DNA from: Candidatus Tayloriibacteriota bacterium
GTDB lineage: Bacteria > Patescibacteriota > Minisyncoccia > Phycocordibacterales > CAIRYW01
Assembly: GCA_028286725.1 (NCBI GenBank)
Contig: JAQBQZ010000004.1
Span: 1 to 50,056, forward strand
DNA length: 50,056 bases
Direction of reading: 5' to 3'
The position numbers and the translations under genes are program-made. Below the pieces are notes generated by a model. It did not search any database, was not told the origin of the DNA, and saw nothing but the letters and a program-made list of their open reading frames with translations. Below are positions 7,040 to 41,203 of this stretch, one piece after another (position 1 is the stretch's first letter; the number at the start of each line of letters is the position of its first letter).

Positions 7040-7363
7040 TTATCCTGGAAAATTTTGTCTGTTAAAAAGTTGGACATAAACATAGTATATCTCAAATTAC
7101 TTGTCTAGGCACGAGATGTGTGGTCATATCACAGCATATTCTGTTAACCAACTTTTCTTGTTATGCAATTAAGAAGGTATATGTCTACCATTGCATAAAT
7201 ATAGCAAAATTAAACAAATGTTAACCAGGAAGTACGTTTGCCATTGCATAACGACAGACAAAACTTTAGAGGATGAAAAGTATAGCAAATTAAGAATTTG
7301 AGAATAGGGTGTAGTAATTTGTGGAAAAACAAAAATGCACCGCAGCGTAGATTCGGTGCATTT

Positions 7364-7720
7364 TTATTCTAAAAGTCTAAGAATAAATATATACAGATCT
7401 CTCGTCTCTTCTCTTTGTGATGCCATTTCTAATGCGTCCCCAAGAGAATTCAAGCCCTCTTCTCTATATCTTGTTGTATTTAAATATATTTGAGCTACTT
7501 TTATTGCGCATACTATGTTGGCGCGATTGGATACTTCGGCATTATCTGGATTAGTCATTGCTTTATCGTTCGCTTCTTGCTCATATTTGGAAACTAGCTT
7601 GAGTAGTGCTTCTTTTGCATCTGGATTATCAATACCTTTATCATCGAGCAAGAGTCTAACCAAATCTTCTTCGGTAGAATGTATTATTTCAGATGGTTTT
7701 GACTCGAGCGGGTTAGACAT
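7364..7720 (-). CDS. hypothetical protein
   Basis: 118-aa ORF ending next to hairpin AAAAATGCACCG...CGGTGCATTTTT. Confidence 0.55.
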   Translation of the reverse strand: MSNPLESKPSEIIHSTEEDLVRLLLDDKGIDNPDAKEALLKLVSKYEQEANDKAMTNPDNAEVSNRANIVCAIKVAQIYLNTTRYREEGLNSLGDALEMASQREETRDLYIFILRLLE

Positions 7721-11852: not shown

Positions 11853-11876
11853 GTTTGAAATTTTACTCTAAAGATA

Positions 11877-11909
11877 AAATGCACCAAGGCAAAGCCTTGG
11901 TGCATTTTT
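11877..11909 (+). terminator. intrinsic terminator
   Basis: AAATGCACCAAGGC aaa GCCTTGGTGCATTTTT. Confidence 0.85.
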
Positions 11910-15779: not shown

Positions 15780-16232
15780 ATGCCAATCAAAACTGAGGGT
15801 ACTTCCAACATCGACTCGGACGCTGCGTTCGAGAGTACTCGTCCACGCGCTCCTCGCTCGTTGGAAATAAACGAGATCGCATTTGTAAGCTATTCAGTGA
15901 CAGATGTTCCAAAAGCCAAACATTTTTATGAAGATATATTAGGACTCAAACCAACATCTATTTTCGGTGACGGAGTAGATTTTGCATTCATTGAATACGA
16001 GATCGGTACGCATACTCTTGCAATAGGCAAGGGTGCGACAGATTTTGTTCCTGGAAAGGCTGGCGCGGTCGCAGCGTTTGAGGTAGAGGATTTTGACGAA
16101 GCGGTCAAAGTTCTCAAAGAAAATAGTATTCTATTTGTAAATGAGCCTGCGGATTATCCAACGTGCAACATGGTGACAATTGAAGATCCTGACGGAAATA
16201 GGGTAATGATACATAGACGGAAAAATAAGTAG
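15780..16232 (+). CDS. VOC family (glyoxalase/bleomycin resistance-like) protein with repeat-derived N-terminal extension
   Basis: INEIAFVSYSVTDVPKAKHFYEDILGLKP ... TCNMVTIEDPDGNRVMIHRRK. Confidence 0.85.
   Translation: MPIKTEGTSNIDSDAAFESTRPRAPRSLEINEIAFVSYSVTDVPKAKHFYEDILGLKPTSIFGDGVDFAFIEYEIGTHTLAIGKGATDFVPGKAGAVAAFEVEDFDEAVKVLKENSILFVNEPADYPTCNMVTIEDPDGNRVMIHRRKNK
15803..15866. repeat. palindromic element copy A, 64 bp, inside a CDS
   Basis: TTCCAAC...GTTGGAA terminal inverted repeats; 36-nt right end and 14-nt internal block shared with 19834-20010. Confidence 0.8.
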
Positions 16233-18902: not shown

Positions 18903-18939
18903 AAAAACAGCACCGAGGCTACGCCTCGGTGCTGTTTTT
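18903..18939 (+). terminator. intrinsic terminator (bidirectional)
   Basis: AAAAACAGCACCGAGGC tac GCCTCGGTGCTGTTTTT. Confidence 0.85.
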
Positions 18940-19212: not shown

Positions 19213-19746
19213 ATGACAAAACAAACAATAGTGCTCGGTGGAGGATGCTTCTGGTGCACAGAGGCAGTGTTTAAGATGCTTAAAGGAATAACTTCGGTTC
19301 TTCCAGGGTATGCAGGAGGCACAACTCCAAACCCGACTTATGAATCTGTCTGTGGCGGTAATACGGGTCATGCAGAGGTTGTAGAAGTGGAGTATGATGC
19401 TGACATGATCAAGCTCGAAGGTATTCTTACCGTCTTCTTTGGTAGTCATGATCCGACAACGGTGAATAGACAAGGGAATGATGTTGGGACGCAATATAGA
19501 TCCGTCATCTTTTATACAACAGAACTACAGAAGGAGATTTGTGAAAAATTCATTAGCGACATCAATAGTTCAAATGAAATGGGTAAGCCTGTAGCTACTG
19601 AAGTTCAGCCGCTTCAAAAGTTTTTTGTGGCAGAGGATTATCACAAAGACTATTTCGCCAATAATCCAGGGAATCCATACTGTGAAGTTGTCATAAATCC
19701 AAAGCTTGAAAAGGTGGTCGCGAAGTATGCTGAACTACTAAAATAA
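19213..19746 (+). CDS. msrA: peptide methionine sulfoxide reductase MsrA
   Basis: VLGGGCFWCTEAVFKMLKGITSVLPGYAGGTTPNPTYESVCGGNTGHAEVVEVEYD. Confidence 0.97.
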   Translation: MTKQTIVLGGGCFWCTEAVFKMLKGITSVLPGYAGGTTPNPTYESVCGGNTGHAEVVEVEYDADMIKLEGILTVFFGSHDPTTVNRQGNDVGTQYRSVIFYTTELQKEICEKFISDINSSNEMGKPVATEVQPLQKFFVAEDYHKDYFANNPGNPYCEVVINPKLEKVVAKYAELLK

Positions 19747-19833
19747 AGGATCTAGGTAGAGTTCGCTAGGTATTAAATGCAACACTCTCAATGCTCAGGT
19801 TTTTTGCAGGTGTTGTGGAAACATGATCCTATA

Positions 19834-20010
19834 TTCCAACTCGACATTGTTTTCTTATGAGCAAAGCGAATTAGAAAACAAGAAGTACTCCTGTAGTGCG
19901 ACTCGGACGCTGTGTACGACTTTATCTTCTTACGAACGAAGTGGGTTAGAAGATAAGAAGTGCTCTTGTGGCGCGTGAGTACTCATCCACGCGCTCCTTG
20001 CTTGTTGAAA
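19834..20010. repeat. palindromic element copy B, 177 bp, with two internal 54-nt hairpin units (19847-19900, 19922-19975)
   Basis: TTCCAAC...GTTGAAA ends shared with copy A; units 40/54 identical with all 14 differences being transitions. Confidence 0.8.
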
Positions 20011-41128: not shown

Positions 41129-41203
41129 ATACATGTCGCACCACAAGAGTACTAATGTATACCTAAGCTGCCTTGAAGGGCATCTAAGGTATACATGTCG
41201 CAC
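41129..41203. repeat. 13-nt direct repeats flanking a 42-bp palindrome
   Basis: ATACATGTCGCAC at 41129-41141 and 41191-41203; ATGTATACCT...AGGTATACAT 41155-41196. Confidence 0.6.

Follow-up and report, generated by a model that had tools for sequence, protein, structure and literature searches.

A repeat copy in a Parcubacteria genome as a probable composite of two hairpin repeat families inserting into one another

The repeat copy at positions 19834-20010 (copy B) is a 66-nt hairpin repeat, termed the core, that is broken by two copies of a 55-nt hairpin repeat, termed H. It is located in a window of 50,056 nucleotides, the whole stretch of DNA analyzed, from a Candidatus Tayloriibacteriota bacterium (host genome 906 kb, 14 contigs, estimated completeness 100%). 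Copy B is probably a composite of two new families of mobile DNA repeats in Parcubacteria, which are non-autonomous, form hairpins, and insert into one another. H would insert at CG, usually within GCGA, and have CG on either side afterwards. In copy B the left flank of the core hairpin would have received one H, the unit H1, and the apex a second, H2. The hairpins would be moved at the DNA level by an enzyme supplied in trans, which probably acts on a folded single strand. We propose that palindromic repeats are safe landing sites, so that elements accumulate inside one another.

The uninterrupted core in the window, copy A, is located at 15803-15868 on the forward strand (66 nt; R1, 77.8 bits). 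Alignment to copy A divides copy B, on the same strand, into three core pieces and two insertions. The left piece of the core (TTCCAACTCG, 19834-19843) ends in the CG where H1 sits. H1 (55 nt, 19844-19898) scored 85.6 bits with the H model R2 over 19841-19905 and is followed by a repeated CG (19899-19900). The middle piece (ACTCGGACGCTGTGTACG, 19901-19918), which aligned to copy A after excision, is followed by H2 (55 nt, 19919-19973; R2, 76.5 bits over 19916-19980), also with CG repeated on its right (19974-19975). The right piece (19976-20010) matches copy A at 88% over 40 nt. Excision of H1 and H2 restores the core: when both were removed in silico with one CG each, 64 nt remained, which matched copy A in 58 of 67 alignment columns. 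Each H unit was excised together with one CG and the next base, a length-neutral choice. The alignment score was 101, compared to a mean of 10.7 and a maximum of 41 in composition shuffles, so that the similarity of the two copies holds under statistical testing, and random excisions of equal lengths reached this score in 1 of 2000 cases. The sequence-only reading had claimed that removal of two hairpin blocks leaves a sequence close to copy A. This was borne out, whereas its block limits (19847-19900 and 19922-19975) were a few bases off and were refined to 19844-19898 and 19919-19973, each plus CG. The ends that it had described as common to both copies were found again as the repeat families D5 and D6, and the 21-mer GAGTACTCNTCCACGCGCTCC has just two occurrences, at 15833 and 19977, where shuffles gave an expectation of 0.00.

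The composite of copy B reaches further left, to the stop codon of msrA, by way of a predicted partner hairpin. Its left arm (AATAAAGGATC, 19742-19752, forward strand) overlaps the stop codon and pairs, with one mismatch, with the right arm (GATCCTATATT, 19825-19835, forward strand). In other genomes the same partner hairpin, AATAAAGG...CCTTTGTT, precedes a subset of the core copies, and many copies have no clear partner.

Template switching or slippage could also have copied neighbouring hairpins into copy B, with no insertion of defined units. Stems were seen to change as a block yet stay complementary, which such a process can produce, but H1 and H2 have the defined 55-nt ends of the whole family and agree in sequence with H copies at other places, and defined ends with CG repeats were found across 40 H copies. 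We consider this explanation extremely unlikely.

Copy B is flanked by msrA and by a LapA-domain gene, after which comes a holin-like membrane gene; the sequence-only reading had placed it upstream of a LapA-like/holin/DUF2914 membrane cluster. The open reading frame at 19968 was correctly described as having a false N-terminal extension, as it starts inside the repeat and its LapA domain (LapA_dom) begins at residue 61 only, which places the extension outside the domain. Copy A forms an in-frame part of the N-terminus of a VOC/glyoxalase ORF (15780-16232). The Glyoxalase domain of this ORF begins at residue 34, and copy A lies upstream of it, within the predicted N-terminal extension. The 66 nt of copy A read in frame as a 22-residue insert near the N-terminus of this predicted glyoxalase-family ORF, which is also what Rickettsia palindromic elements do within ORFs; in contrast to the Rickettsia elements, most copies here are intergenic. 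Three similar palindromes are located at 7332-7365, 11876-11909, and 18905-18938 of the window, two of them with T-runs (AAAATGCACC...GGTGCATTTTT), and are likely terminators of one type.

The core is one long irregular hairpin of about 66 nt and is mostly intergenic. A covariance model found it at 12 places in the genome, both window copies included, and a thirteenth copy (C12:27470) was truncated and interrupted. Among the covariance-model matches the majority of core copies are without H. The consensus from 38 copies in many genomes is TTTCGACTTCGCTCGGACGCTGTGTACGAGAGTACTCGTCCACGCGCTCCTCGCTnGTCGAAATAAA. By BLAST the core was present in 25 of 147 relatives, which belong to many families of the order, and exact matches of the repeat were found in the named genomes of Candidatus Yonathbacteria, Taylorbacteria, and another Parcubacterium, on which basis the host was treated as a Parcubacterium. 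Across the phylum, in a sample of 382 genomes searched with stricter filters that lead to an undercount, the core model matched 11 genomes. Eight belong to the same order, including the genome studied here, and three, one of them a strong match, are from outside it. In two genomes (G057 and G125, loci L043 and L128) the core adjoins the 5' half of a tRNA-like sequence, which in L043 ends at TTAT of the anticodon loop.

The H repeat, of about 55 nt, was found in 55 of the 147 relatives. It consists of a hairpin and a tail ending in GTGGTG. In the alignment of the family (A2), GCGACA is located 5' of the hairpin, GT[AG]G is present in the 3' tail only, and the ends are not inverted repeats. The tail also forms a small second hairpin, in which most variation consists of G-U changes. 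H was found without the core at C12:42590 and C1:7255, and a third H of the window (41132-41201, reverse strand; R2, 43 bits, E 1.4e-10) stands alone, far from any core. The hairpin unit does therefore occur separately from the core. The unit at 41132-41201 has another stem (GTATACCTTAGATGCC...GGCAGCTTAGGTATAC) with the same tail, AGTACTCTTGTGGTGCGA, and the same GCGA ends, which suggests that conservation of H lies in the ends and the tail and not in the stem sequence.

The ends of the core, TTCCAAC and GTTGGAA, pair and covary as the foot of its hairpin. Between genomes the foot and the apical stem change as blocks (TTCCAAC/GTTGGAA, TTTCGTC/GCCGAAA, TTGCAAT/GTTGCAA), and the middle, GCTCGGACGC...GCGCTCCTCGC, is constant. 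An integron attC site, which has ends resembling TTCCAAC/GTTGGAA, was rejected as an identity for the core, since other species have TTTCGTC/GCCGAAA in this place and the copies are scattered and not in arrays. Standard pairs made up 93.2% of the pair cells in the core hairpin and 97.8% in the H hairpin, percentages that are biased upward because the structures were drawn from the same sequences. The double changes are independent of this bias. In the core, 14 of 23 pairs had changed on both sides, with 97 double-change cells compared to 22.7 in shuffles and at most 32 in slid versions, and in H it was 8 of 13 pairs, with 34 double changes compared to 7.9 in shuffles. These compensatory changes support that both hairpins are real.

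H inside the core was found in several genomes and in both orientations, on one strand in the genome studied here and on the other in Yonathbacteria, and at one core position H is present in either orientation. Core copies with zero, one, and two H were found. A triple nest was found in genome G027, where the core contains a variant H' with H in its loop; each stepwise removal restores the host hairpin. The spacer between rpoC and dnaG reads GGAGCGACAGAG in G027 and GGAGAGCGA-H-CGA-H-CGACAGAG in its congener G105, in which the two H form a tandem pair, separated by a single CG, that lies some 10 bases ahead of dnaG. This orthologous empty site, the only one resolved to the base, indicates that H is mobile. 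A second comparison of the two congeners (G027 C7 and G105) showed the core present in one and absent from the other, in a spacer too diverged for a junction at base level. The proposal of a modular element that twice received a second palindromic unit is supported by the cores with zero, one, or two H, the lone H copies, the two orientations, and the empty site.

Selection on structured RNA or cis-regulatory elements, as opposed to mobile DNA, would account for the strong base-pair covariation in the core and H, and the position of the copies, close to gene ends and starts, would fit a regulatory role. Against this, there was no Rfam match to the repeats, as only tRNA and rRNA reached gathering scores in the element loci, and the nested and tandem copies and the orthologous empty site between congeners also speak against it. 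The copies are also found in both orientations relative to their neighbours, and for this reason we claim no cis-regulatory role. We hold this alternative to be very unlikely.

At a second locus, C12:41098, the same H1 sits at the core base where copy B has it (92% over 86 nt), with another repeat, K, elsewhere in the locus. H1 was therefore probably present before the core with H1 was copied, and the insertions of H1 and H2 probably took place separately and at different times. The core and H1 probably spread together as one composite, with H2 and K arriving later. Repeat K is longer (consensus TTCCTTACAGGAACNGTACACCTTTTGGA...CTCACC), has three hairpins, and is present in 69 of the 147 relatives (L002, L015, L083-L112). 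Several K copies lie in loci that share genes of the nusG/rplK region (L070, L102, L104, L105), which may reflect a conserved placement.

The duplicated target was deduced from one genus, in which the native core reads CCGAG-CGCAGTTG and the filled core CCGAGCGA-H-CGCAGTTG. Around H, CG alone is repeated, so the A is part of H, the C is part of H or of the native flank, and the repeated target is CG and not the CGAC that had been proposed next to each insertion. Duplication of CGA or CGAC was first suspected because H is almost always preceded by CGA, and was dropped after this comparison; for the same reason, a shuffle test of left and right 3-mers was uninformative. In a set of 40 H copies, chosen with no regard to their flanking bases, CG was found on the left in 35 and on the right in 16, there at one offset only (background 0.059; p=3e-10, which is optimistic as copies within one genome are not fully independent). 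CG was present on both sides in 15 of the 40 copies and at the orthologous empty site. Ten of the 24 copies that lack CG on the right have TG or CA, which could be due to CpG decay. The enrichment at the right end points to a 2-bp duplication at CG and not at CGAC. For the core, a single case (L131 in G027) suggests duplication of TA or ATAA: the core splits a terminator-like palindrome, CCGTTA-TAACGG, which is perfect at its centre once the core is removed. A general preference of H for hairpin apices was not supported, since none of 45 joined flanks had an arm of at least 5 bp (shuffled pairing 0.9).

The hairpins could be classical REP sequences moved by a RAYT (TnpA-REP, Y1 HUH) that was lost from this genome, in which no Y1_Tnp was found. 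Y1_Tnp genes were present in 89 of the 147 relatives, many of RAYT size (approximately 220-260 aa), and one lies approximately 0.7 kb from a core copy (G021). The presence of H leans toward that of Y1 (p=0.056), and the presence of K does so more clearly (p=0.0002). However, H was near 0 of 40 RAYT loci and the core near 1 of 40, RAYTs of the relatives mostly have other palindromes, short and simple, at their flanks, and genome G045 has near-identical tandem H copies and no Y1. Insertions of the IS200/IS605 type are not known to duplicate a dinucleotide. H does end with the REP tag GT[AG]G, but 3' of the main hairpin and not 5' as in canonical REPs (PMC6006769). Simple RAYT mobilization is not supported by the distribution of Y1_Tnp and the RAYT flanks, and we find the REP explanation unlikely. 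Most of the RAYT-sized Y1 transposase loci that were read (within L161-L200) are flanked by short simple palindromes, e.g., TTGAGGTTAAACCTCAA. The Y1 loci with palindromes of their own are apparent REPtrons of Parcubacteria.

A double-strand transposase or a dinucleotide-core recombinase (IS630-, IS607-, or IS110-like) acting in trans, with H on a CG core and the core on a TA core, is possible, if on the unlikely side. The two-base repeats fit such an enzyme, CG for H and, for the core, the TA that restores the perfect palindrome in L131, and two H in tandem with one CG between them are expected from a circular intermediate. H does, on the other hand, lack the terminal inverted repeats that IS630-like ends need. 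It is doubtful whether H and the core form a class of very small transposable elements, not yet described, that lack terminal inverted repeats, insert at a two-base core (CG for H, TA for the core), nest in each other's palindromes, and depend on an enzyme other than a RAYT whose gene is not adjacent to them. Among the genes beside the elements, no transposase-like family recurred in a conspicuous way, and no exact match to the core, H, or K pattern was found in IMG/VR as a sign of viral origin.

As mobile repeats that insert into one another, the core and H resemble several known systems. BOX elements of Streptococcus pneumoniae (PMC3049150) are likewise small composite interspersed repeats with fixed end modules, a variable number of inner modules, hairpins, and low mobility, and the fixed outer core with 0, 1, or 2 inner H has this layout. 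The boxB modules form tandem arrays at one place (PMC3049150), whereas H is an independent mobile family that is also found alone, at several positions and in both orientations, and is itself host to insertions. The REP/RAYT REPtrons (PMC3733652, PMC6006769, PMC8266576) share short, mostly intergenic, non-coding hairpin repeats and a proposed mobilization in trans, and REPs tagged with CGTC are also without a known dedicated transposase (PMC3733652). In contrast to REPs, H has no GTAG or CGTC tag 5' of its hairpin and the core has neither tag. The units of 55 and 66 nt, the lack of Y1 in the genome, and the different palindromes of the relatives' RAYTs also set the repeats apart from REPtrons. 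The MITEs RUP, Correia, and ERIC (PMC10969869, PMC3049150) are similarly non-autonomous, intergenic, and structured, with a short target repeat. Target-site duplication, a trait of MITEs, was found for H (CG) and for the core only as TA/ATAA in one case; unlike MITEs, H is without terminal inverted repeats, and no parent IS was identified from the genes beside the elements. The literature searched, which covered few subscription papers, did not describe repeats of this kind in Parcubacteria or in any other bacteria of the CPR, and this absence is weak evidence for their novelty.

Parcubacteria genomes are small and streamlined, and parasitic hairpin repeats that nest mutually throughout an order would be an unexpected load. 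Nesting hairpin repeats would also be a ready source of variable gene ends. The enzyme, if found, would name a new route for moving 55-nt pieces of DNA, and the nested copies provide ready-made filled and empty sites with which to test it.
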